Origin: Hyphomicrobiales bacterium
GTDB lineage: Bacteria > Pseudomonadota > Alphaproteobacteria > Rhizobiales > Rhizobiaceae
Assembly: GCA_900473915.1 (NCBI GenBank)
Contig: UCNG01000023.1
Span: forward strand, 1-64,000
Length of the DNA: 64,000 bases
Direction: 5' to 3'
Shown: positions 301-20,419 of the stretch, piece by piece
Layout of the letters: every line of letters begins with the position of its first letter
Position numbering within the stretch: the first letter of the stretch is position 1
Notes under the pieces: model-generated
Databases searched by the model: none
Seen by the model: only the letters and a program-made list of their open reading frames with translations
Told to the model about the DNA's origin: nothing
Position numbers and translations under genes: made by a program

Positions 301-326
301 CCGATATTGAAAAGTTGACGATCCGC

Positions 327-348
327 ACCGCCTTCAGGGCGGTTTTTG
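327..348 (+). terminator. Rho-independent terminator after the tail gene
   Basis: A 6-bp G+C-rich stem (ACCGCC/GGCGGT) with a 5-nt loop is followed by five T residues. It separates the tail gene from the lysis cassette. A second hairpin (CCTCGGC/GCCGAGG) lies just after it at about 362-386. Confidence 0.7.
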
Positions 349-451
349 CAATCAAAAAAAACCTCGGCGCGGGGGCTGCCGAGGTCGCGCCGGAAAAAAG
401 CGGGGGCTTCAACGGCGCATATTGATCATCTCATAAAGAAAGGAAATTGCA

Positions 452-1911: not shown

Positions 1912-2061
1912 CGATTCCTGCCACTTGACATCTTCTGGCCAGCCGTTAGGAGAGCATACGAAGCACTTAATACTGGCAAGGAACGTTCCGCTTAACTATA
2001 AGGCCAGGCGGTTCCGCGTCTGACGAAAGTGTCGCGGCCAAATCAACTTTAAGAGGCGGGT

Positions 2062-3139: not shown

Positions 3140-3345
3140 TTGTCTGGCAGCCCATAGCTGATGAAGTTGCCCGCTCTGTTGCCGCATTTGCTGCAAACCA
3201 GTCGTGGCTCGATCTCTTCGAGCGTAACCCACTCTCCGAAGCGCGCGGCCATAAGCGGGGCGGTCTTTTCCAGATAATGACGGCAATTGGCACAGCTAAA
3301 GCGCACCACGTTTCGCGGGCGCAGTTCTCGCAGTACCGTTCGCAT
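3136..3345 (-). CDS. Small zinc-ribbon protein
   Basis: 69 residues with two Cys pairs, C18-x2-C21 and C51-x2-C54, spaced as in a zinc ribbon; His23 lies next to the first pair. The C-A-N-C-R-H start and the R-x-V-C-S-K-C-G end recur in small rhizobial hypothetical proteins. It starts two bases after the stop of the upstream 65-aa gene and its stop overlaps the next start, so the three genes are read as one operon. A nucleic-acid-binding or assembly role is possible but not shown. Confidence 0.65.
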   Translation of the reverse strand: MRTVLRELRPRNVVRFSCANCRHYLEKTAPLMAARFGEWVTLEEIEPRLVCSKCGNRAGNFISYGLPDK

Positions 3346-3346
3346 T

Positions 3347-3544
3347 TCACTTCACGAAGATTGTTGGTTTCCAGCCGCGTGCAAAGCCCATCGACATAGC
3401 CAGACTGGCATACTCGATTTCCTTGACGAGAAAATCCCGATCTTTCAGAAGCGCCTCGATCGCAGCCCGCACGTCGCCCTTGTGGTAGGCGAGAACCAAT
3501 TCAATTTCGTCTTCGGATTCATTTTCCTGCGCAACCGCATTCAT
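3347..3544 (-). CDS. Small hypothetical protein, first gene of the trio
   Basis: 65 residues from ATG 3544; an in-frame start at 3571 would add nine residues that do not look conserved. It is mainly helical, with an acidic start and an L-A-Y-H-K-G-D-V-R-A-A-I-E segment followed by a second helix. Short proteins with this helix pattern occur in alphaproteobacterial prophages and islands. It heads a tightly packed operon with the zinc-ribbon gene and the 115-aa gene. Function unknown. Confidence 0.55.
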   Translation of the reverse strand: MNAVAQENESEDEIELVLAYHKGDVRAAIEALLKDRDFLVKEIEYASLAMSMGFARGWKPTIFVK

Positions 3545-3772
3545 TGTTCTGCTCCAGCGAAGCAGACACACACGCCACCAAGCATGTCTGTGAGGTGATC
3601 GGGCCGCCTTCCGATGTTCTTATTCTGTTCACGGTCGGTTGGGAGAGTCAAATTGATTTTTCAGGGCCAGCTTTTAGAAGCCTGTAAAATTCCACAGAAT
3701 GAGAAATCCGTGCAGAATCCGTGGAAAATGATAGAATCGGTGCGCAAGCTATTGTAAACACGCGCGCACCGA

Positions 3773-3822
3773 ATCCCTTCACACGGGAGGGGTCACAGGT
3801 TCAATCCCTGTCACGCCCACCA
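3773..3822 (+). other. Prophage attachment site: 3' fragment of tRNA-Val(CAC)
   Basis: This stretch contains the 3' half of the anticodon arm with anticodon CAC, the variable loop, a complete T arm (CAGG-TTCAATC-CCTG) and an acceptor strand ending ACGCCCACCA. The upstream bases do not form the matching D arm or 5' acceptor strand, so it is not a functional tRNA gene. Such fragments are the duplicated end left when a phage integrates into a tRNA gene; the intact tRNA-Val and the integrase should lie upstream of the window. The rest of 3572-4163 holds no convincing gene except one tiny candidate. Confidence 0.75.
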
Positions 3823-3848
3823 TCCGTCCGCTTCCCGGTGGATGTGTC

Positions 3849-3938
3849 TCAGGAACGTTCATATCTCCAAAGCATAATGCATGCGGCGATCACCACCGCG
3901 GATGTCAGCACGCCTATGACAATAGAGAATAGAACCAT
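3849..3938 (-). CDS. Possible 29-residue single-span membrane protein
   Basis: A short frame with one hydrophobic helix (V-L-F-S-I-V-I-G-V-L at the start, aromatic and basic residues at the end). A CAGGGGT stretch lies about eight bases before the ATG. Only length, hydrophobicity and a plausible ribosome site support it; it may be chance. Confidence 0.3.
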   Translation of the reverse strand: MVLFSIVIGVLTSAVVIAACIMLWRYERS

Positions 3939-4116
3939 TGCTTTACCCCTGCTGCGTTCGTTTTCTTTTATGGAGCGGGAGAATGGCCGACGAAAGCAAC
4001 TTCGTCAGGTCTACAATGACGAATCAACATTCCAGGTATTTGAATTGACGAGTCGCGGTTTCGCGTCCGGCGCAGGAATCAAAGCTTTGGGAGGAAATTT
4101 GGGTTCGCCGAAAACA

Positions 4117-4142
4117 AAGCCCGGACTGTTCGGTCCGGGCTT
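4117..4142 (-). terminator. Terminator after the secreted repeat protein gene
   Basis: A 10-bp stem (AAGCCCGGAC/GTCCGGGCTT) with a 6-nt loop. Read on the minus strand it is followed by TGTTTT. It lies 22 bases past the stop of the 4164-4724 gene. Confidence 0.7.
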
Positions 4143-4163
4143 CTGTATTCTTATGCTCGGTTC

Positions 4164-4724
4164 TTAATCGAGAACGTAGCAGGACTTGACCTTGCCGCGC
4201 GCCGGGTCGCCGAAGGTGCGGTTGTCACACCGGACGCCGTTGCGGAATACGCCTTCCGTGAAGCGCCCATTTGCGCCATAGCGCACGCGCTTGCGGCCGT
4301 AGAAATCGCAGAACCCGCCTTCCTTCGCGCAACGGCTCCAGTCGCGGTCGCGGTCACGGTCGTCGTAGCGATCATACGGATCGTACCGATTTGGACGATC
4401 GGGGCGGTCAGGACGGCCCGGACGATCTGGCCTGTCCCAGCGATCCTGAACGACGAAGGAGCAGCTCTTCTTTTTACCCGGTGCGGGGTCGCCAAAGACA
4501 CGGTTGGAGCAGCTGACCTGCGGGCGGTCGATGAAGCGCGATGTATTCCGTCCACCGGTGCCATAGACCACTTCAGCCGGGTAGGGCAGCTGGCAAACAC
4601 CGTTTTCGCTTGCGCAGCGCTGCAACTGGGCTGCTGAAGCCGGTGTGACGAGCGGTGAGAGGACGGCCACCAGGCCGCCAAGGCATAGGGAGGCAACAGT
4701 CGTCTTGAGTGCAGGTATCATCAT
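4164..4724 (-). CDS. Secreted protein with two copies of a four-Cys domain and an Arg/Asp/Pro-rich linker
   Basis: 186 residues. A signal peptide covers about residues 1-31, ending A-S-A-A. Two homologous domains follow. Copy 1 has C37, C44, C72 and C88; copy 2 has C132, C139, C166 and C182. Both contain Y-G-x-G-G/N, then C-x-N-x-x-F-G-D-P-x-x-G-K-x-K-S-C, so each copy probably holds two disulfides. The linker (about 94-129) is almost only Arg, Asp, Pro and Tyr. Domains of this pattern occur singly in secreted bacterial and fungal proteins, but I cannot name a function. It stands alone with its own terminator. Confidence 0.75.
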   Translation of the reverse strand: MMIPALKTTVASLCLGGLVAVLSPLVTPASAAQLQRCASENGVCQLPYPAEVVYGTGGRNTSRFIDRPQVSCSNRVFGDPAPGKKKSCSFVVQDRWDRPDRPGRPDRPDRPNRYDPYDRYDDRDRDRDWSRCAKEGGFCDFYGRKRVRYGANGRFTEGVFRNGVRCDNRTFGDPARGKVKSCYVLD

Positions 4725-4889
4725 GAGTCCCTCTGATATCGATGGAATATGCTTTAATTCCGGTAGCTTGAACAGAGGATGAATAGGGCGCGCCCAATGG
4801 GAATTTTGCCAGTTGGTTAAGAATTCCAGGAGGCGGGGTCGACAAACATTTTCTGCTCTGGTTTGCTACGGCAAGAATGAGGTTCTGAA

Positions 4890-5036
4890 ATGCACCGACT
4901 GCCTTTTCGTTTCAAATCGATCATCGTTGTTCTGGCGGGCATGATCGCCGTCGGTTTTTTTGTCGGCCACAAAACGAAAGAGGCGCGCCAGACATCGCTT
5001 GTTCAACGTTCTGCGCCCTCTGAAGCCGGAATATAG
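4890..5036 (+). CDS. Possible 48-residue membrane-anchored small protein
   Basis: One hydrophobic segment (about residues 10-26) is followed by a polar tail rich in Lys, Arg and Gln. A GAGG motif lies about seven bases before the ATG. It lies between the divergent secreted-protein gene and the ligase gene. Evidence is limited to the ribosome site and topology. Confidence 0.4.
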   Translation: MHRLPFRFKSIIVVLAGMIAVGFFVGHKTKEARQTSLVQRSAPSEAGI

Positions 5037-5121
5037 TCCAGCCCTTTCGTCCGACCTCCTTCCTTTCCCGCAAGTTTCATGAAATGAAACACTCACGTTC
5101 ACTGTTCGGGAGGCTGCACAC

Positions 5122-6171
5122 ATGCACGGCGAATACAAAGTCCATGGCGGAAAACTTGTCGTTGTCGATCTGGAAGTTCGTGAGGGGCGTTTGAGCGACG
5201 TGCAGGTGGCGGGCGATTTTTTCCTGGAGCCGGATGAGGCTCTGGGGGATATCTGCAATGCTGTTGAAGGTCTCTCCGCCGATGCCTCGTCGGAACAGAT
5301 TGCCGACGCGGTGAGGGCTGGCCTTCGCCCCGATGCCATGATGCTCGGTTTCAGCCCGGAAGCGGTGGCGATTGCCGTCAGGCGAGCACTGGGCGTTGCA
5401 CGCACATGGCGGGATTTTGAGTGGCAGATCGTTGAAATGCCGGCGGTTTCGCCCGCGATGCATCTGGCGCTCGACGAGGTTCTGGCAAAGGAAGTCGCCG
5501 CCGGACGCCGCGCGCCGACGCTGCGCTTCTGGGAATGGGAACGCCCGGCCATCATCATCGGCGCGTTCCAGTCGCTGCGCAATGAAGTGGATATGGAAGC
5601 GACACGCGAATTTGGCGTAGAGACCGTTCGGCGCGTAACCGGCGGCGGCGCGATGTTCGTTGAACCCGGCAGCACCATAACCTATTCGCTCTATGCGCCC
5701 GGCGAACTCGTGCGCGATATGAGCTTTGCCGATTCCTATGCATTTCTGGACGATTGGGTGCTGAAAGCGCTCAATTCGCTGGGCATCGATGCATTTTACA
5801 AGCCGCTCAACGATATTTCGAGCTCCAGGGGCAAGATCGGCGGCGCGGCGCAGAAGCGCTTTTCCAAGGGAACGGTCCTCCATCATGTGACCATGGCCTA
5901 CGACATGGACGCCGAGAAAATGGTGAAGGTTCTGCGCATCGGGCGCGAGAAGCTGAGCGACAAGGGCACGACGAGCGCGGTGAAGCGCGTCGATCCTGTT
6001 CGCAGCCAGACAGGGCTGCCGCGCGAGGAAGTCATCAAGCGCATGAAGGACACATTTGTATCGCTCAATGGCGGCGTCAGCAGCACGATTACGCCTGAGG
6101 AATATGCGGCTGCGGAAAAGCTGGTGGTCGAAAAATTCTCGACCGAGCAATGGCTGCACAACATTCCATGA
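5122..6171 (+). CDS. Lipoate-protein ligase A family protein with the accessory domain at the N-terminus
   Basis: 349 residues. Residues about 1-90 resemble the lipoate-ligase accessory (C-terminal-type) domain: H-G-E-Y-K-V-H-G-G-K-L, then F-F-L-E-P. Residues about 100-300 are the biotin/lipoate transferase catalytic domain with the lipoyl-AMP motif R170-R171-x-x-G-G-G and the conserved Lys238 in R-G-K-I-G-G-A-A-Q. It should activate lipoate or octanoate and attach it to a lipoyl domain. The order accessory-then-catalytic is the reverse of E. coli LplA; related enzymes with split or swapped domains are known in archaea and Gram-positives. The exact substrate is uncertain. Confidence 0.8.
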   Translation: MHGEYKVHGGKLVVVDLEVREGRLSDVQVAGDFFLEPDEALGDICNAVEGLSADASSEQIADAVRAGLRPDAMMLGFSPEAVAIAVRRALGVARTWRDFEWQIVEMPAVSPAMHLALDEVLAKEVAAGRRAPTLRFWEWERPAIIIGAFQSLRNEVDMEATREFGVETVRRVTGGGAMFVEPGSTITYSLYAPGELVRDMSFADSYAFLDDWVLKALNSLGIDAFYKPLNDISSSRGKIGGAAQKRFSKGTVLHHVTMAYDMDAEKMVKVLRIGREKLSDKGTTSAVKRVDPVRSQTGLPREEVIKRMKDTFVSLNGGVSSTITPEEYAAAEKLVVEKFSTEQWLHNIP

Positions 6172-6289
6172 TCTGAAGCGGAGAATTTCCAACCGCAAAG
6201 CGGGGTGACTTGGCTGTGCCGCCGTGGCATAGGAGGCCGCAACGCGACCGCCTTCCATCCAACGCCATCTCGCAAAGTCTGCCCGTTTC

Positions 6290-7912
6290 ATGATCCGCAT
6301 CGACAATATCAGCAAATCCAACAGCCATCGCATTCTCTTTATCGAGGCTTCCGCCGCCCTGAACCGGGGCGAAAAGATCGGACTTGTGGGGCCCAACGGT
6401 GCGGGCAAGACGACCCTGTTTCGCATGATTACCGGTGATGAGCAGCCGGACGAGGGACAGGTTTCCGTCGAAAAAGGCGTGACGATTGGCTATTTCGACC
6501 AGAATGTCGGCGAAATGGGCGGACGTTCCGCCGTCGCGGAAGTGATGGAGGGGGCGGGCCCTGTCAGCGTGGTTGCGGCGGAGCTCCGCGAGCTGGAGGC
6601 CGCAATGGTCGATCCAGACCGCATGGACGAGATGGATGCGATCATCGAGCGTTACGGTGAAGTGCAGGCGCGATACGAGGAACTGGACGGCTACGGTCTG
6701 GATGGCCGCGCACGCGAGGTTCTGGCGGGCTTGAGCTTCACGCAGGAAATGATGGACGGCGATGTCGGCAAGCTTTCCGGCGGCTGGAAAATGCGTGTTG
6801 CGCTGGCGCGCATTCTGCTGATGCGCCCGGATGTGATGCTGCTCGACGAGCCGAGCAACCATCTCGATCTCGAAAGCCTTATCTGGCTGGAGGCGTTTCT
6901 GAAGAATTACGACGGCGCGTTGCTGATGACCTCGCACGACCGCGAGTTCATGAACCGTATCGTGACCAAGATCATCGAAATCGACGGCGGCTCGCTGACG
7001 ACCTATTCCGGCGATTACGCTTTTTACGAGGGCCAGCGGGCGCTGAATGAAAAGCAGCAGCAGGCCCAGTTTGAGCGCCAGCAGGCAATGCTTGCCAAGG
7101 AAATCAAGTTCATCGAGCGTTTCAAGGCGCGTGCTTCGCATGCTTCGCAGGTCCAAAGCCGCGTGAAGAAGCTGGAGAAGATCGACCGCGTGGAGCCGCC
7201 CCGCCGCCGCCAGACGGTCGCCTTCGACTTCGCGCCCGCGCCGCGTTCGGGTGAGGATGTCGTGAGCCTGAAAGGCGTGCACAAGACCTATGGCAGCCGC
7301 ACGATCTATGACGGTTTTGACTTCATGGTCCGCCGCCGCGAACGCTGGTGCATCATGGGTGTCAACGGTGCGGGAAAGTCGACGCTGCTGAAACTGGTTG
7401 CAGGTGCAGCAGAGCCGGACAAGGGCAATGTCAATATCGGCGCCAGCGTCAAGCTTGGCTATTTCGCGCAGCATGCAATGGATGTGCTCGACGGCGACGC
7501 CACCATACTGGAATGGTTGGAAGAACGTTTTCCAAAAGCAGGCCAGGCGCCGCTTCGTGCTTTGGCAGGCTGCTTTGGTTTTTCCGGTGACGATATCGAA
7601 AAGAAGTGCCGCGTGCTTTCGGGTGGGGAAAAGGCCCGTCTGGTGATGGCGGCGATGCTGTTCGACCCACCGAACTTCCTCGTTCTGGACGAGCCGACCA
7701 ACCATCTCGACCTCGATACCAAGGAAATGCTTATCAAGGCGCTTGCTGCCTATGAAGGCACGATGCTGTTCGTATCGCACGACCGGCATTTTCTCGGCGC
7801 ATTGTCCAACCGGGTTCTGGAACTGACGCCAGATGGCATCCACCAATACGGTGGCGGCTATACGGAATATGTCGAGCGGACGGGGCAGGAAGCTCCGGGG
7901 TTGCGTTCTTAA
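6290..7912 (+). CDS. ABC-F family ATPase
   Basis: 540 residues with two ABC cassettes and no membrane segments. Cassette 1 has Walker A G-P-N-G-A-G-K-T at residues 34-41, signature L-S-G-G-W-K-M-R near residue 161 and Walker B L-L-D-E-P-S-N-H-L-D-L. Cassette 2 has G-V-N-G-A-G-K-S near residue 353, L-S-G-G-E-K-A-R and L-D-E-P-T-N-H-L-D-L-D. The charged linker between them is the ribosome-facing P-site tRNA interaction motif of ABC-F proteins. The overall form is closest to the Uup/YheS/YbiT group. These act on translating ribosomes rather than in transport; the specific role is unknown. Confidence 0.9.
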   Translation: MIRIDNISKSNSHRILFIEASAALNRGEKIGLVGPNGAGKTTLFRMITGDEQPDEGQVSVEKGVTIGYFDQNVGEMGGRSAVAEVMEGAGPVSVVAAELRELEAAMVDPDRMDEMDAIIERYGEVQARYEELDGYGLDGRAREVLAGLSFTQEMMDGDVGKLSGGWKMRVALARILLMRPDVMLLDEPSNHLDLESLIWLEAFLKNYDGALLMTSHDREFMNRIVTKIIEIDGGSLTTYSGDYAFYEGQRALNEKQQQAQFERQQAMLAKEIKFIERFKARASHASQVQSRVKKLEKIDRVEPPRRRQTVAFDFAPAPRSGEDVVSLKGVHKTYGSRTIYDGFDFMVRRRERWCIMGVNGAGKSTLLKLVAGAAEPDKGNVNIGASVKLGYFAQHAMDVLDGDATILEWLEERFPKAGQAPLRALAGCFGFSGDDIEKKCRVLSGGEKARLVMAAMLFDPPNFLVLDEPTNHLDLDTKEMLIKALAAYEGTMLFVSHDRHFLGALSNRVLELTPDGIHQYGGGYTEYVERTGQEAPGLRS

Positions 7913-8020
7913 CAGCGGAAGCTGTCGCAACTTTGCTCTGATTTCTCAAAATAAGTCATTGATGCACATGCGCGGTTCGGTTAGAAACGCGCATGAAAAG
8001 GCTTCGAGCCTGCCAGTAAT

Positions 8021-8097
8021 GCACCCGTAGCTCAGCTGGATAGAGTGCTGCCCTCCGAAGGCAGAGGTCACAGGTTCGAATCCTGTCGGGTGCGCCA
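8021..8097 (+). tRNA. tRNA-Arg (anticodon CCG)
   Basis: 77 bases fold into a full cloverleaf: acceptor GCACCCG pairing with CGGGTGC, a D arm, an anticodon arm CTGCC/GGCAG with loop CTCCGAA (anticodon CCG), and a T arm CAGG/CCTG with TTCGAAT. The encoded end is GCCA. Its 3' part is repeated at 20245-20298, marking it as the insertion site of the island that follows. Confidence 0.97.
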
Positions 8098-8101
8098 TAA
8101 A
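8048..8101 (+). repeat. attL: left copy of the 54-bp attachment repeat
   Basis: Identical over 54 bases to 20245-20298. It begins in the anticodon stem (CTGCCCTCCG) and runs through the T arm and GCCA end to ATAAA. The left copy lies inside the intact tRNA-Arg gene, so the tRNA is restored by the chromosome side. Confidence 0.93.
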
Positions 8102-8132
8102 AATCAATCACTTAGCGGCATTATCGATTTAG

Positions 8133-8199
8133 CCTAGGTAGCAAATAGGTAGCGCGATGGTGGGTTTCGTCCCGGCTTTGCGGGTGAGTTACCTAGCCA
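8133..8199. repeat. Integrase/excisionase arm-type repeats beside attL
   Basis: CCTAGGTAGC is followed by AATAGGTAGC (8133-8153). An inverted related copy, TTACCTAGCC, lies about 35 bases further on. The same double motif, with one base different over 21, is found beside attR at 20120-20140. Repeats near both ends of an integrated element are typical arm-binding sites for integrase or its directionality factor. Confidence 0.6.
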
Positions 8200-8200
8200 C

Positions 8201-8240
8201 GTTCCGACTCGAAACTCAAAAAATTCGAGGGAGTCGGAAC
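8201..8240. repeat. 10-bp inverted repeat at the start of the noncoding block
   Basis: GTTCCGACTC at 8201-8210 is the exact reverse complement of GAGTCGGAAC at 8231-8240. The 20-bp spacer contains GAA and TTC that extend the pairing. Each arm contains a GANTC site. Confidence 0.7.
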
Positions 8241-8289
8241 GCCTTGCCTCCCGCTGGGGCCGTTAAACGTCTAGCCTCGCCTGAGTCCT

Positions 8290-8668
8290 GTATGGTTGTA
8301 CGCATGATGCGTAGAGCCATACCAACCTGAAGGCGGGATAGCCGTCCGAGTCTCGTATGGTCAACCGCATCATGCGGTAAGCCATATCTAACCTGCCCGA
8401 CTTTCATTGCGGACGAGTCTCTTTAGCGTTCGTTGTTGCTTCAGTCCTGTATGGCTTATCACATCATGTGATGGACCATACCAACCTTTACCCACGCTCA
8501 TTTCTGATAAACCTTTAACGTTTGTTCTCGCGACAGGCCTGTATGGCCCCTTTCCATTCGAAAGCGACCATACGAACCTGAACCCGATTTCGTTTCGGGC
8601 GAGTCTTTTTGCACTTAGCGGCATCCGAGTCTTTGAACCATACAATGGCACGGTGCCATTAGCCTTAC
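8290..8668. repeat. Array of five 33-nt nested palindromes in a 940-bp noncoding block
   Basis: Copies at 8290-8322, 8355-8387, 8449-8481, 8541-8573 and a degenerate one at 8636-8668. The first three share this plan: GTATGG, five variable bases, a 5-bp arm, one base, the complementary 5-bp arm, five variable bases, CCATAC (CCATAT in copy 2), then AACCT. The inner arms change together: CGCAT/ATGCG in copies 1 and 2, CACAT/ATGTG in copy 3. Copy 4 keeps the outer arms and the exact length with a shifted inner stem. Copy 5 keeps only an inner 8-bp stem and the flank GAACCTG. No believable gene lies in 8102-9042; the short frames there are read through the repeats. Confidence 0.85.
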
Positions 8669-9042
8669 GAACCTGAATCCAGTTTCTTATCCGACGAGTC
8701 TTTTCAACTTTTGCCGGTCGAGTCTTTTGCGAAAATTTGTGCCGGAGAGTCATGGCCGATCGTTAAAAGTTGTGCCGAGGAGTCGTAAGGCTATCGCCGC
8801 TTCAGGTTTTTCTTGTTTTGAGCTGGGCCACATTTAACTCTCAGCGCTCTTATCAGTTTTTTCTCTTCCCTAATATATCCAAAGCATCCACCTCAAATCA
8901 AAGGTTATTGTCAGCTTTTAAATGCTAGGTATTTCTTGCGTATGATCCTCGTTAACATTGTTGACTAAGTATATCCGACAAGTCATGGTGTTTGCATTCA
9001 AGTGAAATTACGGACAAACGTGAGCCATACAGGTGGATAAAC

Positions 9043-9288
9043 ATGGAAAAGGAAACACTGTTACTTAGGAGGGATGCTGCGAAAGCTCTTAGCGCCGTAG
9101 GCTATCCCGTAAAAGCAACGACACTGGCGAAACTTGCTTGCCGAGGTGGAGGGCCAAAGTTTCGTAGGTTTGGACGGACGCCGCTCTATCGATGGGCGGA
9201 CCTTCTGGAATGGGCCGAGGCGAAATCCTCCCCAGTCGGCACAACCACCACTGAATGCGAAACCCTGCGCAGCGCCGCTGCCGCATAA
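9043..9288 (+). CDS. AlpA/MerR-like small DNA-binding regulator
   Basis: 81 residues from ATG 9043, with AGGTGG six bases upstream; an upstream in-frame start at 8992 lacks a ribosome site. The pattern L-L-R-R-D-A-A-K-A-L, G-Y-P-V-K-A-T-T-L-A-K-L, then G-G-P-K-F-R-R-F-G-R-T-P-L-Y-R-W-x-D-L-x-x-W is that of the winged-helix excisionase/AlpA class, including the beta-hairpin wing. Such proteins act as excisionase or as activators of the integration-replication genes. It is the first gene of the rightward module that leads to the VapE ATPase. Confidence 0.7.
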   Translation: MEKETLLLRRDAAKALSAVGYPVKATTLAKLACRGGGPKFRRFGRTPLYRWADLLEWAEAKSSPVGTTTTECETLRSAAAA

Positions 9289-9307
9289 GCTCACGGAGGC
9301 GAAAGCC

Positions 9308-9643
9308 ATGAACTACATTTCAGACGACAAGATTGAAAGCGCCCGGCTGGAGGCGAAGCTCGGAAGCTTCCGGGCCGGTCCCGGCATTTCGGCCACGGAT
9401 CACCTGAACGGCCAAACCGTGCCAGCTTACGATAAAGGCTCGGACGCGGTGGCGTTGGGCATTAGCGAAAGTGCGGCGATGCACAAGCGGGACATGGAAC
9501 GCCTAAAGGCTCGTGAAGCGGTGCGGGCCTCGGTCTTCGCCGCATTCCCGGACGCTCCAGCGGAGCTTCAGTCCATTATGTACAGCCATCCCAAGGTCGA
9601 GGCGTGGCTTGCCGCGCTCGCGGAGAAGGAGCAATCCCGATGA
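9308..9643 (+). CDS. Hypothetical island protein
   Basis: 111 residues from ATG 9308 preceded by a strong GGAGG. The middle is low in hydrophobic residues, and the C-terminal 55 residues form charged helices (M-H-K-R-D-M-E-R-L-K-A-R-E). Its stop overlaps the next ATG (ATGA). It lies 19 bases after the AlpA-like gene in the same rightward module. No family recognised. Confidence 0.6.
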   Translation: MNYISDDKIESARLEAKLGSFRAGPGISATDHLNGQTVPAYDKGSDAVALGISESAAMHKRDMERLKAREAVRASVFAAFPDAPAELQSIMYSHPKVEAWLAALAEKEQSR

Positions 9644-10011
9644 AATCCGAAGACTTTTATCACGCCGCCAGCGCCCGCCTCTTCACGCCGGAGCAACTGG
9701 ACACCATAGCGTACCGCTATCAGCAGTCGGCGGCACTTTACCCAGAAGAGCACGAGCGCGTCTCCCGGTACATTCAGGACCACAAGCTGGTCGGACACCG
9801 GGAAGTGCTGGAGCACTATCTGCATAGCAATCTGCCGATGAGCGACCACGCCTTGAACGTCATCAACGCCTTTGCTGACTCCACTGCCGCAGGCGCGTAC
9901 GACCGAGGGGCCGAAAGAGGAGCGCCGACGCATGGGGTCGAGACCTATGGCGGCGTTGAATCGGCAGCAAGCCGTCTGTTTAGCAGCTCGGTGAAACCGG
10001 GGGAACGGTGA
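9640..10011 (+). CDS. Hypothetical island protein
   Basis: 123 residues from ATG 9640, overlapping the previous stop by four bases. The first 80 residues are helical with several Tyr and His (Y-H-A-A-S-A-R-L, then Y-R-Y-Q-Q-S-A-A-L-Y), and the tail is Gly/Ser-rich. The stop overlaps the next start. Function unknown; position suggests a replication- or packaging-linked accessory protein of the satellite. Confidence 0.55.
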   Translation: MKSEDFYHAASARLFTPEQLDTIAYRYQQSAALYPEEHERVSRYIQDHKLVGHREVLEHYLHSNLPMSDHALNVINAFADSTAAGAYDRGAERGAPTHGVETYGGVESAASRLFSSSVKPGER

Positions 10012-10391: not shown

Positions 10392-10613
10392 ATGACTGCT
10401 GACGTGATTTCACTGGACGAGGCCCGGAACCGGTTGCGGGTGGAGCCGGAGCTGGTTGCACAGGACGAATTTTTCCGAGGCATGTATTTGTTGCGCGAAG
10501 CGCTGGAACTGATCGAAGCCCTGCCGGGAAAGCGGGCCGAAGATGCCTACGACCGCCTATGCCAAGGAATGCGGGTGGTTTTTGATCGAGAACGGAGGCT
10601 GGGCCGTGGGTGA
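10392..10613 (+). CDS. Small hypothetical protein preceding the VapE-like gene
   Basis: 73 residues from ATG 10392 (GTG 10389 is the alternative). It begins with V-I-S-L-D-E-A-R-N-R-L, a start common among small phage and island proteins, followed by two amphipathic helices. Its last eight bases overlap the GTG start of the ATPase gene, so translation is probably coupled. Function unknown. Confidence 0.5.
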   Translation: MTADVISLDEARNRLRVEPELVAQDEFFRGMYLLREALELIEALPGKRAEDAYDRLCQGMRVVFDRERRLGRG

Positions 10614-12003
10614 GATTTTGAAGATGGAGAAGGATGTGATGGCAAGGGTGGTGCGGGAGTTAGACGCCACGGACCTTGCGTTGCTCACCGCAGACGATCT
10701 GGCAATGAAAGACTTGCTGCCGATTTCGTCGAAGCCGAACGAAGTGCAGACCTTTAGTTCATTTTTGGACCGGAAGCAGGCGCGAAAGGGCAAGGCACAG
10801 GCGGAACTGAACCGCCAAGCAAATCCGGGCGGCTTCGCGCCCTCGGTAGCTAACGCAAAACTGGCGATCACCAAGCTGGGCATCCGCATGAAGTTCGACA
10901 AGTTTCACATGCGGATGGAGATCGAGGGTTACGATAAGCCTGTTGGCGAGGCTTTTGCGGACACGGTGCTGAAGCTGCGTGATGTTGTGATTGAGAATTT
11001 CGATTTTGATCCCGGCCAGCGAAACGTGGAAGATGCGGCAAGGCTGCTTGCGATGCAGAACGCGTTCGATCCGTTGCGGGATTATCTTGATGGGCTGGTT
11101 TGGGATGGAACGCCGAGGCTGGACACTTGGCTTTCGGTGTATCTTGGCGCGGCGGATGACGAACTGACGCGGGCCATTGGCCGGGCCGTGCTGGTTGCCG
11201 GGGTCCGGCGCGTACGGCGTCCCGGCTGTAAGTTTGATGCAATGCTGGTGCTGGAAGGGCCGCAGGGGCGCGGAAAGTCATCGGCGCTCAAGGTGTTGGC
11301 CGGAGGGGATGACAATTTCACCGACGCCCTCGATTTCCGCCAGAACTATAAAGAGCATCAAGAACTGCTGCTGGGGAAATGGATCGTTGAAGCACCGGAG
11401 TTGGATGGGCTGGGCCAGTCGGACGTGCGGCGGGCAAAGCAGTTCATTTCAAAAACCCACGACCGAGCGCGTGCGGCTTACGCCCGGACGGTCGAGGAAG
11501 TTCCCCGTCGCTGCATCCTGATCGGCACGACGAACGACGACCATTACCTTAAAGACCCGACCGGGAACCGGAGGTTTTGGCCGGTGGTGACGGGAGAGAT
11601 TGATCTGGCGGCCCTGCGTGAGGCCCGCGATCAGCTTTGGGCTGAAGCCGCGATGGTGGAGCCGGGTGAAGCCGACCCCGTGACCATCCCGGAGCATCTG
11701 TGGACGGTTGCTGCCGAGCGGCAAGCCGAACGCGTCGAGGCCGATCCGTGGGAAGATACGCTCGCCGCGCTCCTGCCGAAGCTTGCTAAGCGGGCCGAAG
11801 GCGAGCTTCGCATCGCCACGAGTAACATTTTCGTATCGGCATTGGCGATGGAGATGCCGAACGTGACGAAGCGGGATAGTCGGAGGCTGGGCGATTGCAT
11901 GAGGCGGCTGGGGTGGACCGGGCCGAAGCTGATCTGGGCGGGAGATAAGCCGGTGAGAGGGTATGTTAAACAGGATGGTATGGCCCTAACGGATGGTGAA
12001 TGA
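10606..12003 (+). CDS. VapE-family P-loop ATPase, likely replication helicase/primase-associated
   Basis: 465 residues from GTG 10606, which has GGAGG eight bases upstream; the upstream ATG at 10543 lies well inside the previous gene. Walker A is G-P-Q-G-R-G-K-S at residues 218-225. It is followed by W-I-V-E-A-P-E-L-D-G-L (Walker B region) and I-G-T-T-N-D-D-x-Y-L-K-D-P-T-G-N-R-R-F-W-P-V, the signature of virulence-associated E proteins. These resemble phage and satellite replicative helicases. No N-terminal primase domain is visible. Iteron-like repeats lie right after the gene, which fits an initiator-helicase role at a nearby origin. Confidence 0.85.
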   Translation: MGEILKMEKDVMARVVRELDATDLALLTADDLAMKDLLPISSKPNEVQTFSSFLDRKQARKGKAQAELNRQANPGGFAPSVANAKLAITKLGIRMKFDKFHMRMEIEGYDKPVGEAFADTVLKLRDVVIENFDFDPGQRNVEDAARLLAMQNAFDPLRDYLDGLVWDGTPRLDTWLSVYLGAADDELTRAIGRAVLVAGVRRVRRPGCKFDAMLVLEGPQGRGKSSALKVLAGGDDNFTDALDFRQNYKEHQELLLGKWIVEAPELDGLGQSDVRRAKQFISKTHDRARAAYARTVEEVPRRCILIGTTNDDHYLKDPTGNRRFWPVVTGEIDLAALREARDQLWAEAAMVEPGEADPVTIPEHLWTVAAERQAERVEADPWEDTLAALLPKLAKRAEGELRIATSNIFVSALAMEMPNVTKRDSRRLGDCMRRLGWTGPKLIWAGDKPVRGYVKQDGMALTDGE

Positions 12004-12610: not shown

Positions 12611-13738
12611 TTACGTAGACCTCGTTAGAAAGAGCATCATTTCCTTCGCCGGCTGTCGTGCATGTCTGCTTTTATTCGGTTTTAGTTTAAGAGAATGCCC
12701 ACCCAGTGTACTAAAAACAGTTTCTATATATCTATCTTCTACGTGAAAGTAAGCATTCGCAATCTCGCGAACTTGTTTACCTGTTAAGCCATTTGAGCAA
12801 GCGTGATCAGGAAAAGTTAATATCGCGGACGCTCCCACTGAAGATATGGATTGAAGTAGATCACTCAAGGCACGGGAGGATTGCCCCTTCAGGCTATAGT
12901 TAGATCTCGGTCGGCGTGAAGCTGCTGGATAGCGTCCCACGCCCGACACCTCTCCACATTCTCCTACCGCGACGGTCTCGAGAACATGATAGAATCGGCT
13001 ATAATGAACACCTGAATATGGAGGGTCGATAAAGACCAGATCGTTTGCTTTTAGCTCCTTTGCAACCAAATTTGCGTCGCCGATCCGCGCTAATCCCGGA
13101 ACTAAAGCTTTTTGCTGCGCCAAATCGATCAATGCTTTATTGGTATAAAACAATGGGTCTCTTGACCAAGCTTCTATTAAAAATCGGATGGCGGTTCCTG
13201 TTGGTTGAAATGGCTGCGCTGTGTGTCCAGGGGAGGCAACACATAGGCTAGCTGCTTCGACGAGAGCAGCAATTGCTGTCGTCTCACATTCGCTATTCTG
13301 CGGAACAGTCCCCCGTAGCGCGTCAAACCAAAGAGCTTGGGAAGCGCTAAAATAGTGGCCACCATACGCTCGAGTTATTGGATGGGCCTGATCAGCACAC
13401 CATTCGCGGATCCATTCCACATCCTTCCTACTAACAATTTCCTTTGAGGGCGGTTTAAGTTGAGCGAACTGTTCGTTGGCTGAAGCGAACCACTCTTTCC
13501 AAATTTTTACCCCATCAAGTTCTGCGCTTCTCGCAATCACTGAGGAAGCGACCGCAACGCTATAAGCCTGAATGTCGTAAGCGTAGACTGAGATGGGATA
13601 GTTCTTGGCAACATGATTTGCGACAGCAGCCGATCCTGTGAACAGATCGATGAAGCGGTCAAAGTTACCAATTTCGTTATGCAACAATTCGCCCAGTCCA
13701 TTTCGGAGCATTGAGCGCTTAGAGCCCATATATTTCAT
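12611..13738 (-). CDS. D12-class N6-adenine DNA methyltransferase
   Basis: 375 residues. The N-terminal K-Y-M-G-S-K-R (2-8) and F-T-G-S-A-A-V (33-39) form the SAM site of Dam-like (D12, alpha-class) enzymes. D-P-P-Y at 238-241 is the catalytic motif, followed by S-G-V-H-Y-S-R-F-Y-H-V-L-E. It should methylate adenine in a specific DNA sequence; the recognition site is unknown. It is the last gene of a leftward operon with the 447-aa protein and the DGQHR protein, and no neighbouring gene looks like a classical restriction endonuclease. Confidence 0.85.
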   Translation of the reverse strand: MKYMGSKRSMLRNGLGELLHNEIGNFDRFIDLFTGSAAVANHVAKNYPISVYAYDIQAYSVAVASSVIARSAELDGVKIWKEWFASANEQFAQLKPPSKEIVSRKDVEWIREWCADQAHPITRAYGGHYFSASQALWFDALRGTVPQNSECETTAIAALVEAASLCVASPGHTAQPFQPTGTAIRFLIEAWSRDPLFYTNKALIDLAQQKALVPGLARIGDANLVAKELKANDLVFIDPPYSGVHYSRFYHVLETVAVGECGEVSGVGRYPAASRRPRSNYSLKGQSSRALSDLLQSISSVGASAILTFPDHACSNGLTGKQVREIANAYFHVEDRYIETVFSTLGGHSLKLKPNKSRHARQPAKEMMLFLTRST

Positions 13739-13748
13739 TTCGCTTCAA

Positions 13749-15092
13749 TCATGCGGGCAGCAAGCTCCATACCATGGGACGTTCGAATCCACCGAGGCTG
13801 TTTACTGCCTCTCCTGCTTCAAGTCCAAGGTTATAAAATGAATGCGTCCGCCCTGTGTGATGCGTGTCAAAATCGTCGAAGCTCGTGATCGCTTGCTCGA
13901 TATCACTCCAAAGGTCAGTTGCGTTATCGGGTGTATTCCCCTCGTTCCATAGTCCTCGTGCAGGTCCGAGTTCAGACCACCAAAACTCTATGTCTGATGA
14001 CACAAAACCCGCATCTTTGAGTAAAGAGGAAATTGAACCAGATGAAACGCGTAATAATAATACAGCTCTGGATATCATATAGAAAGAACTAGAGCTATTC
14101 TTGTCTGGATTTTTCTTCGATAGATCGAATATTTTTGGATCATCTGAGTTAGCTCTTCTAGTAAGAAAATTAAACCATAGTTTTTCCATCTCAACTGGTA
14201 GGCCTTGATAACTAATTACTGATTTAATAAATTTTAAAAAATCCGGCCCTCTATTGGATGGCTGGCCGCCTCTGTTTTTATATATACTTTCTAGAAGTAA
14301 TCTCAGTATGTATTTGTCAAGATTGTCAAATGTCGAATTCGGTGATGGCTCCAACAGCTTCCAAATATCTTTGACCATAGTTGTCGCTTGGCCTGATGTA
14401 AGAGTCCATGAAGCTGGAATACCTTCGGGGCGATAACTGGAGTGATTCCGTGCATCACGGTCATCTGCCATGTATCTCAGATCCATTCCCCATTGCATAA
14501 ACCAGCTATGGGCTTGAGCACCCAGATTGGCCTGCCCATTGATGGGAGTCAGCCAATCTTTTAGGCTCCTGCCATACGGGCTAATTATTGAAGAAAACAA
14601 CTTGGCCGAACGATGATCTTGCGCCCAGTTATCCAAACAATCCCACACGAAAACGTGTGTGTTTCCTCTGGCTGGGCAAATTGCAGCCAAGTTTGGTTTG
14701 TCGATAATCGCGTGCTTCGAGTTGAAAACGCCTATCCCCTCGCTCGCCAATAAGGACATAGCAGCTCTCAGTTCTGCATAATAAGCCAAATGACGAGCTC
14801 GATTGGGATCGCCTCTCAATACGGCTTGGATAGCTCTGCCGAGATAACTCCACCCGTCTGAGCTGTGCAACAATGCGCTTACTGCAATATACTGCGATAG
14901 GTGGCGTGGATTGGCGATAGCCCCCATCACATGATCGGCCTCGACCTTCTCTGAAGCCTTGTCGCAATAATGATTATTAAGCCCCAGCCAGCGCCCATTG
15001 GCAATAAAACGCCGACTCGATGATAAGGTCTGAGAAACATGGCTTCGGTTGAGATGGTTTAGAATTGCTTTGTTTGCTGCGGAAAGAGGCAT
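13749..15092 (-). CDS. Uncharacterised 447-residue protein of the modification cassette
   Basis: No family is recognised. The protein is soluble and mainly helical, and starts three bases after the stop of the DGQHR gene. Notable segments are A-Y-Y-A-E-L-R-A-A-M-S-L-L-A (104-117), G-I-G-V-F-N-x-x-H (119-127), F-V-W-D-C-L-D-N-W (148-156) and R212-D-A-R-N-H217. The last matches the R-x4-H core of HEPN ribonucleases by pattern only, which is weak evidence. Fixed between a DGQHR protein and a DNA methylase, it is the most likely effector or specificity partner of the cassette. Its A+T content is visibly higher than that of the core genes, consistent with transfer. Confidence 0.7.
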   Translation of the reverse strand: MPLSAANKAILNHLNRSHVSQTLSSSRRFIANGRWLGLNNHYCDKASEKVEADHVMGAIANPRHLSQYIAVSALLHSSDGWSYLGRAIQAVLRGDPNRARHLAYYAELRAAMSLLASEGIGVFNSKHAIIDKPNLAAICPARGNTHVFVWDCLDNWAQDHRSAKLFSSIISPYGRSLKDWLTPINGQANLGAQAHSWFMQWGMDLRYMADDRDARNHSSYRPEGIPASWTLTSGQATTMVKDIWKLLEPSPNSTFDNLDKYILRLLLESIYKNRGGQPSNRGPDFLKFIKSVISYQGLPVEMEKLWFNFLTRRANSDDPKIFDLSKKNPDKNSSSSFYMISRAVLLLRVSSGSISSLLKDAGFVSSDIEFWWSELGPARGLWNEGNTPDNATDLWSDIEQAITSFDDFDTHHTGRTHSFYNLGLEAGEAVNSLGGFERPMVWSLLPA

Positions 15093-15094
15093 TC

Positions 15095-16708
15095 TTAAGC
15101 TACCTCTTGTTGCACGCGTGTCGCTGCGTCCCCTAAAACACCTCCTTGTTTGGCGAGGTGTTCAAGCAGTTGAAGCCGAATTTCCTTATACCCGCTGCTA
15201 CCTCGAAAAACCAATTTGCTTCTTCTCTCATTGGCGTCAAGTTCAGGTGTAGAACTTGTGCGCCAATCAAAACTCGACAACGATTTGGCTATTGACGATA
15301 CCGTTTTGGAAGATTCATGTTTGCTATAGCTTTTTAGTGCCAAAGATACAGCTTCGGTGTCCGATGCCGACCCGTTAGTATCCGCTTTCCAGCTCCGAAG
15401 ATCTAGCTTCGGCGCCAAATAGAAGCAAATATCATTCAATATGCTTAAGTATCCACGAACCCCTTGGTCCGTAGATATTAATGAATAGCTTCCGTAAAAG
15501 CGTTCTTTAGCGGCGTCCATCGTATTCAGTGCCTGCTCTTTTAAAGCAATAGCACTTATATTATTAGCCCAGTCGTCATTGCTTTTAATCACTGCGTCGT
15601 GAAGTTCTGACCAAGCAAATACAAGGAATGCGGCTTGTTGCGCGCGACTCCATCCTAGTACTTCGTTGTCATTTGACATTCTGGAGCCATACAAGCCACC
15701 AATCTTGCTCCCGCGCCCCTGCCACGGTTTCACGAACGTCGACATTAATGACCGTATCCAAGCTGCTTGAGTTACGCCGTCAACTTGTCGCTCGCCGAGC
15801 ATATTAATCCGGTCGTACCAAGGACTAGATGGGTGTGCCCAAAGTGCTTCAGTAAGCTCTTGCGCTCTCGTTTCTCTGTATATTGGATGGCCTTCTGCTC
15901 GATCCAACCAATCTTCGCCTCTGAGGAGAGGGTAAAGATCAAAAGCAAGGCTAGGATTGATACGCTTCGGCTTAATATTAATTGTCCAAAACAAGTAGGC
16001 TTGCCAACTGATGTCAAGTCCGTAAAAAGCAACCACGGGAAGTTCAAAAGTATCGTCTACCTCGTCATCGAAGGCCCAAAGTCGATGCTGTCCGTCGATC
16101 ACTTCAAATGGAGGAATGCTTTGAGGCTTCCATTTTCGAGACCACTCTTTGTATGGCAAAACTAACGAGCTAATGCCACTTCCGGGATTTATTTTTACGG
16201 CATCATCCGTTCCCAGCTTTATGCCGTTCCTAGTTTCGCCTTGCGGTAAAATATTAATAACAATTGCGGTGGGCAACCACCCAGGCTTGCGCAAGTCGTT
16301 GAAGTCCGTGGATTTTCGCTTTGCTTCGGAAATCGTTGACCAAGGATAACCGAACTCCACGTAACGACCAATCTCGCTCGAGCGCTCGCGGTCATGTTCT
16401 CTTTGAATACCTAAATCCGCTGAACGCGCGCGAAGGTTGCTCGAGCTACGCCGGGCAATTCCACATAAGCTTCTCATTTCGGAAGCAGGAAGGGAAAACA
16501 AAAAGAAATGAGGCTCGGGTTTCTTTCTATGGTCGTCATCAGAAAACTCGACTTGATCCCACCCCTTAAGCCATTGTGAAACTTTTATTGCTGGAATGGT
16601 TTTGTTTTCAGACTTTTCCAAAGCGCCCTCCTGCCTTGTTGGCAATCTACCCAAATGTCTCTGTATCAATTTGTGAATGTAAGAGTCGAGCAATTTGCAA
16701 GAATGCAT
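15095..16708 (-). CDS. DGQHR-domain (DndB-like) protein
   Basis: 537 residues. D-G-Q-H-R is at 205-209, preceded by a beta-strand F-E-V-I and followed by L-W-A-F; the next part has P-V-V-A-F-Y and W-T-I-N-I-K-P-K-R-I-N-P-S, matching the ParB/DndB-like fold. DGQHR proteins are known in DNA phosphorothioation (DndB, a regulator) and in 7-deazaguanine DNA-modification loci. No DndACDE or Dpd partner is in the window, so this copy works with the methylase and the 447-aa protein instead. It is the first gene of the leftward operon. The start at 16708 is the longest available and is not certain. Confidence 0.75.
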   Translation of the reverse strand: MHSCKLLDSYIHKLIQRHLGRLPTRQEGALEKSENKTIPAIKVSQWLKGWDQVEFSDDDHRKKPEPHFFLFSLPASEMRSLCGIARRSSSNLRARSADLGIQREHDRERSSEIGRYVEFGYPWSTISEAKRKSTDFNDLRKPGWLPTAIVINILPQGETRNGIKLGTDDAVKINPGSGISSLVLPYKEWSRKWKPQSIPPFEVIDGQHRLWAFDDEVDDTFELPVVAFYGLDISWQAYLFWTINIKPKRINPSLAFDLYPLLRGEDWLDRAEGHPIYRETRAQELTEALWAHPSSPWYDRINMLGERQVDGVTQAAWIRSLMSTFVKPWQGRGSKIGGLYGSRMSNDNEVLGWSRAQQAAFLVFAWSELHDAVIKSNDDWANNISAIALKEQALNTMDAAKERFYGSYSLISTDQGVRGYLSILNDICFYLAPKLDLRSWKADTNGSASDTEAVSLALKSYSKHESSKTVSSIAKSLSSFDWRTSSTPELDANERRSKLVFRGSSGYKEIRLQLLEHLAKQGGVLGDAATRVQQEVA

Positions 16709-16733: not shown

Positions 16734-17309
16734 TTAGGGGAATTGTTGGGTCGATTTCAAAATCCTAAACACACTCGCCCGCCCGATCCCCAGCTTCGTC
16801 GCGATAGCGTCCGCCGTCATTCCCCCGGCCTTCAACCGCAGTACATCTTCCGCTTTCGCCCGCGCAGTCGGCGCTCGCCCCTTGTATTTGCCCTCGGCTT
16901 TGGCCTTCGCGATCCCCTCGCGTTGCCGTTCCAGCATCAACTCCCGTTCAAACTCGGCAATCGACCCTAGCAAATTCAGCATCAACTTGCCGGTCGGTGT
17001 GGCGGTGTCGAGGTTCATCGATAGGATGCGAAGCGCCACGCCCTTCGTGCGAAGCGTCTCTGTAATTGCCACGAGGTCAGCGACTGATCGTGCAAGGCGG
17101 TCCAGCTTGGTGACGATAAGCGTGTCGGCCTCGCGTACGTAATCCAGTGCCCGCTCCAGTTCGGGGCGCTTGGTAGCTACAGACGACAACTCCTCTTGGA
17201 AGATGCGTGAAGCCCCCGCAGCGGACAGATCGCGGAGCTGGGCTTCAAGGCCAGCTTTCTGGTCGGTGGTTGATGTGCGGGCGTAGCCAACGATTGCGGC
17301 GGTGGACAT
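16734..17309 (-). CDS. Serine recombinase of the resolvase/invertase family
   Basis: 191 residues from ATG 17309; a start at 17330 would add seven residues. The catalytic Ser is residue 13 in Y-A-R-T-S-T-x-D-Q. Other features are V-T-K-L-D-R-L-A-R-S, the E-helix E-F-E-R-E-L-M-L-E-R-Q-R-E-G-I, and a C-terminal helix-turn-helix (G-M-T-A-D-A-I-A-T-K-L-G-I-G-R-A-S-V-F-R-I-L). It could resolve dimers or invert a segment. A second recombinase besides the tyrosine integrase is a plasmid- or transposon-like trait, and it lies next to the cargo operon. Confidence 0.9.
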   Translation of the reverse strand: MSTAAIVGYARTSTTDQKAGLEAQLRDLSAAGASRIFQEELSSVATKRPELERALDYVREADTLIVTKLDRLARSVADLVAITETLRTKGVALRILSMNLDTATPTGKLMLNLLGSIAEFERELMLERQREGIAKAKAEGKYKGRAPTARAKAEDVLRLKAGGMTADAIATKLGIGRASVFRILKSTQQFP

Positions 17310-17682
17310 GATGGACTCCGATAGTCTCACATAACTTATAAATACTGTGATACTAAGGTATCAAAAAGTCAACTCCAATGTGTGTGATACCACCAGTTGG
17401 CTTTATTCCGAGAATCGCTAGGGCTTGCCCTATTGATACTGCGCGGAGATACGGTGCTGTGAGGTTGAGCCATATGCATGCGGGCGGGCACCGCATGGCA
17501 TGGCTAGCCATGGATAGAATGTATCGGGAAACGGGGCGGAATGGTGCCGCCATCAAGCGCGGTGATGATAGTCGGTAGTTGTATCCATCGAATGAAATAT
17601 CGCGCCATGCGGCGGATGCGGGACGAAGATCGGTATGGCCCAGCATTGCCCCACCGAGTTTCATTGCTTATTGTGTTCTATT

Positions 17683-18054: not shown

Positions 18055-18315
18055 CTAGCTTTTACGCCTGCCTGCACCGAGCGGGGCGATTGGCTCAGCG
18101 TCTTTCGGGGGAATGGCGAATAACTCCGAAACGTCGCAATCGAGAACCGTAGCTAGTTTATGGAGCGTGACGATTGTCGGATTTTTCTTGCCGCGCTCGA
18201 GATGGCCGACATAAGCGCGCTCAACGTCTGCGGCAAACGCAAGGTGATCCTGCGATATACCTTTTTCAACCCTTAAGCGTCGAAGGTTCCAGCCGACTCG
18301 TTCTCTGACATCCAT
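18055..18315 (-). CDS. XRE-family transcriptional regulator
   Basis: 86 residues with a helix-turn-helix at about residues 8-62: V-G-W-N-L-R-R-L-R-V-E-K-G-I-S-Q-D-H-L-A-F, then Y-V-G-H-L-E-R-G-K-K-N-P-T-I-V-T-L-H-K-L-A. A short basic tail follows. It is a likely repressor of island genes. It is divergent from the small membrane protein gene at 18452, with a 136-bp shared promoter region. Confidence 0.9.
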   Translation of the reverse strand: MDVRERVGWNLRRLRVEKGISQDHLAFAADVERAYVGHLERGKKNPTIVTLHKLATVLDCDVSELFAIPPKDAEPIAPLGAGRRKS

Positions 18316-18909: not shown

Positions 18910-20097
18910 CTATGCCGCCATTCTTTTCGCTGTTTCATCGGCCACTGCATCAGCCGCCGCAACCAGCACTGCGTCAGCAAAGTGAACGTACCTCGCCGTG
19001 ATCGTTGTGCTCTTGTGACCGAGCAGCGCGCCAATGGTCGGCTCACTGTAGCCAAGATCGGCGGCAAGGCTGGCGAAGCTGTGTCGGAGGGTGTGGAGGG
19101 TAATGCCCGCTGGAAGCTTCAGCTTTTCCCAATGCGTTTGCAGTGCCAAGGTTTCGCCTCGTGCGGGGATGAAAACCAAGCCGGTGGATTTCGCCGGGCC
19201 AAGCGCATCACAAGCCGCCTGTGAAAGTGGACGGATGCTGAAGCCCGTCTTTGTATCACCCAGTGTAGCCGTGCGACGTTCAAGGTTCACTTCTTCCCAA
19301 CGCAATAAGCTGGCCTCGCTGCGCCTCCATCCCGTAAGGGCGAGGAAGCGGATTGCCGCCAGCGCCGGGGGCCACATGTCGTCACGAACGAGCGCTTTAC
19401 CAAGCTTTTTGTATTCCTCGTCATTGAGACGTCGCATCTTGCGGGCGTCCGCTGGCCGCATGACGCCGTGGACCGGATTGTCCGGGCGCAGACCCAGCCG
19501 AACTGCGTATGTGAAGATACCGCCGAGCAGACCTACTGTTCTGCTCGCCGTACCAGTTCCGCCCCGCACTACAGACTTACCACGCAGCTTTTTTGTCTTC
19601 TCGATCTTCGCAGTTTTCCCCTTCGCCACATCATTCATAAAATCCTCGATGTCTTGGCGCGTGACCTGAGCTACCGACTTACGACCGAGGAGGGGCTTGA
19701 TGTGACGTTCGATGCGCCCGGCGTCCGTGGCGAGGGTCGAAGCTTTCTTCGGGCGACGCATCGTTGACCCTGCGTCCTTGAGGTACTGGTCGCATAATTC
19801 GGCAACGGTCTGCACCGAGAGGCGCGCGGCAGTCGGACTTTTCCCTTTTACCACGACTTCGCCAAGGAGACGCTGCGCTTCGGCCCTAGCAGTATCCGGC
19901 GTCCACGGCGCTCCGTGCCGCCCTATGGTGATCTTGTGCTGGCGTCCATCCTTGGTGCGGAAAAAGAGAATGTAGGAAACAGACTCGCCACGTTGCCGTC
20001 GCGCCCCGAAACCTGTCACGGTGCTATCCCATATAACTGAGTTAACCGGTAAGGCCGCTATGTCCCGAATACCAATGCGTTTCTTAGCCTGTGCCAT
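18910..20097 (-). CDS. int: Tyrosine integrase of the island
   Basis: 395 residues from ATG 20097, which has AAGGGG upstream; a start at 20142 would read through the arm repeats. The N-terminal part is the arm-binding domain (G-F-G-A-R-R, then Y-I-L-F-F-R), followed by a SAM-like core-binding domain. The catalytic residues are Arg in G-W-R-R-S-E-A, H335-x2-R338, H361 in L-L-G-H and Tyr370 in A-R-Y-V-H-F. It should recombine the 54-bp tRNA-Arg repeats at both ends. Its start lies 148 bp from attR, and the arm repeats at 20120-20140 sit in its promoter, so it may regulate itself. Confidence 0.95.
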   Translation of the reverse strand: MAQAKKRIGIRDIAALPVNSVIWDSTVTGFGARRQRGESVSYILFFRTKDGRQHKITIGRHGAPWTPDTARAEAQRLLGEVVVKGKSPTAARLSVQTVAELCDQYLKDAGSTMRRPKKASTLATDAGRIERHIKPLLGRKSVAQVTRQDIEDFMNDVAKGKTAKIEKTKKLRGKSVVRGGTGTASRTVGLLGGIFTYAVRLGLRPDNPVHGVMRPADARKMRRLNDEEYKKLGKALVRDDMWPPALAAIRFLALTGWRRSEASLLRWEEVNLERRTATLGDTKTGFSIRPLSQAACDALGPAKSTGLVFIPARGETLALQTHWEKLKLPAGITLHTLRHSFASLAADLGYSEPTIGALLGHKSTTITARYVHFADAVLVAAADAVADETAKRMAA

Positions 20098-20119
20098 GGG
20101 ATGCCCCTTGAGTTTGCTT

Positions 20120-20140
20120 CCTAGGTAGCTAATAGGTAGC
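20120..20140. repeat. Integrase/excisionase arm-type repeats beside attR
   Basis: CCTAGGTAGC followed by AATAGGTAGC with one base between; 20 of 21 bases match the copy at 8133-8153 in the same orientation. It lies between the integrase start and attR. Confidence 0.6.
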
Positions 20141-20244
20141 ATAAGCGGGCAATTCGTGGCAATGGCGGGTAATCATGGTCTACTGAAAATAGTATTAAAA
20201 TCAATGCGATGTAGTTGAAGTCAATTTTCGGAAAAGATGCGTTT

Positions 20245-20298
20245 CTGCCCTCCGAAGGCAGAGGTCACAGGTTCGAATCCTGTCGGGTGCGCCATAAA
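20245..20298 (+). repeat. attR: right copy of the 54-bp attachment repeat
   Basis: Identical to 8048-8101. The bases upstream (GAAAAGATGCGTTT) do not continue the tRNA, so this is only the duplicated 3' end. It marks the right boundary of the island. Confidence 0.93.
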
Positions 20299-20419
20299 TT
20301 CCAATAAAATCAAGTAATTACGAAGATCGCGAAACTGGCGATTGGAATCTAGCTATTTGTTGGCACAATTTTGGCACAGTGCTGAAATCCCGGCACACTA
20401 GCGATTACGGTGATTTCAG

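Follow-up and report, generated by a model that had tools for sequence, protein, structure and literature searches.

Among the closest known relatives of the system considered here are SspE and DndI, in which, according to the accessible part of one study, related N-terminal domains couple a DNA mark to nucleoside triphosphate (NTP) hydrolysis and to control of a nuclease (PMC11662687). A DndB-like protein, in turn, binds ATP and GTP, as stated in the accessible part of a second study (PMC12704722). Here we describe a compact cassette of about 4.1 kb in the first 64,000 nucleotides of contig UCNG01000023.1 from a Hyphomicrobiales bacterium (assembly GCA_900473915.1), a stretch that we refer to as the window. 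The cassette comprises three open reading frames (ORFs) on the minus strand: one for a DGQHR protein, a candidate sensor and NTPase, listed at first as 15095-16708 (537 amino acids); one for a 447-amino-acid protein without known family (13749-15092), which we call protein X and consider a candidate effector; and one for a D12 DNA adenine methylase of 375 amino acids (12611-13738). The original prediction had pointed to these tightly packed genes as a possible DNA-modification defence system. The packing holds, with 2 and 10 bases between the ORFs; the gaps of 3 and 11 given earlier are coordinate differences. On balance, we favor the view that the cassette works on its own as a defence system gated by DNA modification, in which the DGQHR protein would be the sensor and X the likely effector.

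The three-gene linkage is beyond chance, because the same neighbors recur in distant phyla. A plasmid search returned two kinds of carrier, Rhizobium tumorigenes and Zymomonas mobilis; a profile of three X sequences then gave 18 genome loci and 3 loci from a viral collection, a larger X profile added 3 new viral-collection loci, and a DGQHR profile added 6 more. The X family now counts 33 distinct loci including the window, the 32 others being spread across several bacterial phyla and one archaeon. A neighborhood search, the check named in the original prediction, bears out the co-conservation of the three families. By profile-based gene calls, X occurs together with a DGQHR gene in 32 of the 33 loci, the exception (L016) being cut at a contig end. 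We count L048 among the 32, though there (5989-9720) the DGQHR gene is split into two ORFs and an insertion holding a 520-amino-acid ORF on the other strand separates it from X. A D12 methylase gene is adjacent in 30 of the 33: in 27 it comes next downstream in the same orientation, in L036 and L043 it is convergent, and in L019 it lies upstream of DGQHR; none was seen at L011, L017 or L018, the last on a contig of only 4 kb. Approached from the DGQHR side, all nine confirmed loci, six of them new, had both X and a methylase. No other neighbor recurs in more than two of the 23 loci compared, and Pfam searches with 20 hand-picked proteins (19 neighbors and the L019 DGQHR protein) named no nuclease. 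The divergence of DGQHR and X is correlated (Spearman 0.85 over 31 loci, whose pairs are not independent), with X the less conserved of the two among the 25 closest pairs listed.

The carriers are in part mobile: besides the island that holds the window copy, they comprise two plasmid records and 12 loci of the viral collection. At the limits applied, a search of 50,697 phage records gave no relative of X or DGQHR, and a first-pass viral scan with X alone gave no matches. In an order-level sample, X was present in one of 397 genomes, the seed itself, and the family is therefore rare in that sample.

The partner of the DGQHR-X pair is not constant. The window methylase is confirmed as a D12 enzyme (PF02086, 53.8 bits against a cutoff of 22) with alpha-class motif order and intact FxG and DPPY motifs, and PADLOC places it among generic type II methylase models. 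All 30 methylases retain DPPY; by length and alignment, 7 of them form a short Dam-like class and the others, with the window enzyme, a long class. On quick trees, the short class requires five changes along DGQHR (31 rows, at least four forced by well-supported branches) and four along X (32 rows, four forced); shuffled labels match the observed number of changes in 178 of 500 trials on the DGQHR tree and 28 of 500 on the X tree. According to the trees, DGQHR and X remained a pair through at least four changes of methylase class. For example, L042 and L022 share 78% identity in DGQHR and 61% in X and only 21% in the methylase. At L017, on a Pseudanabaena plasmid, the pair is followed on the same strand by dndC, dndD and dndE, with a PbeC-type gene upstream; among the X loci, dndCDE was seen beside this one only.

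The DGQHR protein probably begins at a TTG at 16621, giving a coding region of 15095-16621 (508 amino acids) and leaving the first 29 residues of the 537-amino-acid ORF untranslated. AGGAGG precedes this codon; the annotated start of the Zymomonas gene lies nearby and is likewise TTG, and that of the Rhizobium gene is a few residues later. The window protein exceeds the TIGR03187 cutoff (76.1 bits against 58.85). It models as a ParB-type NTPase N-domain with intact NTPase motifs, followed by a helical part. The ParB-type domain spans about residues 67-251 of the 537-amino-acid ORF and carries invariant QR, IDGQHR and FxxxN motifs, IDGQHR being present in 31 of 31 sequences; both the ParB-type NTPase fold and the arginine of the DGQHR/Box II motif were found. 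For residues 272-537, the structure matches include unrelated helical proteins and no fold is assigned, and a PDB profile search with the protein gave no matches.

Several known identities were considered for this protein. An HNH-fused SspE/DndI identity was rejected on sequence criteria, as a search of the window protein, to E 0.1, gave no HNH/DUF1524 match and no position after residue 245 has histidine in at least 80% of the 31 sequences. DpdB (NF041060, 23.7 bits against a cutoff of 300) and DGQHR_dnd_1 (TIGR04172, 62.9 against 450) were rejected as well, the weak DpdB match in PADLOC (E 1e-5, 22.5 bits) notwithstanding. In line with the original prediction, which placed DGQHR proteins in DNA modification systems, this protein is of the ParB type and akin to DndB and SspE. 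In addition, we noted a different, shorter DGQHR protein (about 380-420 amino acids) after a small protein (157-207 amino acids) at L003, L007, L008 and L009, next to or not far from adenine methylases, BglII-family endonucleases or dndC/dndD; these neighbors point to another DGQHR module associated with DNA modification.

Protein X gave no match in Pfam, PADLOC, NCBIfam or PHROGs, and a PDB profile search returned three matches, all with E 1 or worse. Pfam searches with 22 members of the family touched six families, one member each, at E 0.016 or worse, with no HEPN match. The family nevertheless has a sharply defined set of residues that are invariant in all 33 sequences, including H76, W81, H101, Y104, Y105, R109, T145 and H146, as well as D204, R215, N216, S219, Y220 and R342. 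Such a pattern would fit an active or binding site. The HEPN motif is Rx4-6H, and we take the invariant R-N-x-x-S-Y of X to resemble it with tyrosine in place of histidine, a resemblance that no library match supports. The original prediction had remarked that no classical nuclease is present, and PADLOC, Pfam and NCBIfam recognized none in the cassette; X is proposed as the likely effector.

We suggest a model in which the D12 methylase writes N6-methyladenine (m6A) on self DNA, the DGQHR protein, as an NTPase of the ParB/SspE/DndI type, senses whether the DNA carries the mark, and this reading gates X, a separate subunit that would act on DNA or another nucleic acid. The pair would thus be the functional equivalent of a split SspE or DndI, with a sensor that has no HNH domain and an effector supplied by a second gene. 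The mark could either block the effector, as in DndI, or license it, as in SspE, and the writer could be exchanged, for one of two distinct D12 classes or, in one case, DndCDE. The data show that the three genes are linked, that DGQHR and X diverged together, that the writer changed repeatedly and that the N-domain is of the ParB type with intact NTPase motifs; reading of the mark, an effector activity of X and defence are inferred. The loci at which no methylase was seen are compatible with a licensing mark, with a mark from another D12 enzyme, or with inactive copies.

More tentatively, DGQHR-X could be an undescribed reader/effector pair for chemically unrelated self marks, namely base methylation by two D12 classes in the majority of carriers and, in Pseudanabaena, phosphorothioation by DndCDE, with X founding a new effector family. 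If true, the cassette would represent a defence chassis with constant reader and effector and an exchangeable writer, and a compact immune system with a new effector family. How one ParB-type sensor handles unrelated DNA marks would become testable, and a function would be predicted for DGQHR proteins outside Dnd and Dpd clusters.

A different account, which we consider doubtful but the most serious competitor, is that DGQHR-X serves the modification enzyme as a regulator or accessory, in the manner of DndB, sensing NTP and DNA state and limiting or targeting the writer. The cassette would then be a stand-alone modification module, for instance for anti-restriction by a mobile element, without a restriction part of its own. 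DndB stands first in dndBCDE, and this is the place held by DGQHR-X at L017, where the pair lies directly upstream of dndCDE and next to a Pbe-type gene. The DGQHR domain by itself is consistent with a DndB-like regulatory role, and the L019 homolog passes the DndB profile PF14072 (33.5 bits, cutoff 29.1). The window, plasmid and viral-collection copies also reside on mobile elements or proviruses, and a methylase could protect such DNA from restriction. However, the window protein itself only touches the DndB profile (20.2 bits, E 3.5e-4) and remains under its cutoff, where DndB is a single protein, two large and tightly coupled ones are retained, and the pair persists with distinct writers, which would be unusual for an operon repressor.

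It is less likely still that the cassette is a type II-like restriction-modification (R-M) system in which DGQHR-X is an unrecognized restriction enzyme that cleaves the methylase target where it is unmethylated, a site probably centred on GATC (RGATCY). Outside the family, relatives of the long-class window methylase (26-28% identity) are found beside BglII/BstYI-family endonucleases at L003 and L005, weakly hinting at an RGATCY-type site. The other pointer comes from Zymomonas CP3, a member of the CP4 group, for which the m6A motifs reported in PMC8088579, apart from GANTC, are RGATCY (98.6%) and a single bipartite motif like those of type I systems. The only methylases in the incomplete PLSDB gene table of the 30,952-bp CP4 plasmid belong to one type I system and to the cassette. 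Whatever the mechanism of the cassette, this suggests that the short-class methylase writes RG(m6A)TCY, assuming that CP3 holds the plasmid; carriage by CP3 is an assumption that also weighs against the R-M account, as does the fact that PADLOC, Pfam and NCBIfam recognized no endonuclease fold or motif.

Avoidance of RGATCY adds no support. In the backbone of the window (1-8000 and 20310-64000) the site is strongly depleted, with 17 occurrences observed and 43.6 expected, the lowest observed/expected ratio (O/E) among 32 R/Y-flanked palindrome groups. In six carrier genomes, the O/E was 0.81, 0.72, 0.49, 0.90, 1.08 and 1.19, and in 19 other loci it ranged from 0.55 to 1.4 (here L006 is a non-carrier and L050 contains L002). 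As controls, we used the 19 of 20 listed genomes without a match from the order of another carrier. Twelve of these cassette-free stretches, of at least 13 kb, gave 0.37-1.00, and all 19 pooled gave 0.79. Because controls without the cassette are depleted too, avoidance was rejected as evidence for the cassette mark.

Finally, the idea that mobile elements long ago carried unrelated genes along together, and that the linked genes do not function jointly, fits the island, plasmid and viral-collection carriers and the exchanged methylases, but is highly improbable given the nearly fixed order, the near-zero spacing, the correlated divergence across phyla and the lack of any other conserved neighbor.

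In the window, the cassette is cargo of a 12.2-kb integrative element in a tRNA-Arg gene, in agreement with the cargo position first proposed. The left end, attL (8048-8108), takes in the 3´ portion of tRNA-Arg(CCG) (8021-8097) and a few further bases and is duplicated as a 61-nt direct repeat, 95% identical, at attR (20245-20305). The element encodes a tyrosine integrase (18910-20142, minus strand; PF00589, E 6.3e-18) and a VapE-type replication protein (10543-12003, plus strand; PF05272, E 4.1e-69), and Dnd proteins had no match among the island proteins scanned. The GC content of four 2-kb windows across the cassette is 0.46-0.49, against 0.50-0.61 in the remaining window. The gene that immediately precedes DGQHR, also on the minus strand, encodes a serine resolvase (16734-17330), and further on (18055-18315, minus strand) lies the gene for a small helix-turn-helix protein that matches PADLOC R-M control proteins (E 8.5e-17) and may be the island repressor or a regulator of the cassette. 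Just inside attL, 8279-8704 contains degenerate tandem repeats with motifs of 42-50 nt, such as CCATACCAACCT, spaced mostly by 92-95 nt. Among the other carriers, a 503-amino-acid ORF without Pfam match follows the Rhizobium cassette on the same strand (L001, 8484-9995). The 31-kb Zymomonas CP4 plasmid (L050) combines the cassette with a type I R-M system, two annotated toxin-antitoxin pairs, and DUF4433 and macro-domain genes, which we presume to be DarTG-like; literature searches under the name of the Zymomonas plasmid gave no result.

The original prediction knew of no set with exactly these three members, and we likewise found none in PADLOC or in the titles and abstract openings of the literature searched, preprints and most subscription papers being outside its scope. 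The accessible parts of two close surveys do not mention the cassette (PMC10853773, PMC12839542). Of the described systems, the phosphorothioate-sensing SspABCD-SspE and IscS-DndBCDE-DndI defences share with it a ParB/DUF262-type NTPase domain, a DGQ(H/Q)R motif and an adjoining DNA-modification writer. In contrast to SspE and DndI, the cassette DGQHR protein has no conserved C-terminal histidine and, by sequence, no HNH domain, the second large protein X is always part of the cassette, and in most cases a D12 methylase serves as the writer. DndB (PF14072) also has a DGQHR domain, with the pair directly before dndCDE at L017 and the L019 protein above the DndB cutoff, whereas the window protein is below it, has 508-537 amino acids with a long helical C-terminal part, and is paired with X. 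DpdB and DGQHR_dnd_1 have the domain in DNA-modification clusters as well, with the window protein far below both cutoffs. Unlike the type IV systems GmrSD and BrxU, the cassette has no recognizable GmrD/HNH part and encodes a methylase alongside; to our knowledge, type IV systems carry none. Type II R-M systems with D12 methylases, such as the BglII/BstYI-like ones, have a distantly related adenine methylase, but in the cassette DGQHR-X takes the place of a recognizable endonuclease. Thus, the effector candidate is of no known family, the principle is known, and the combination is new.
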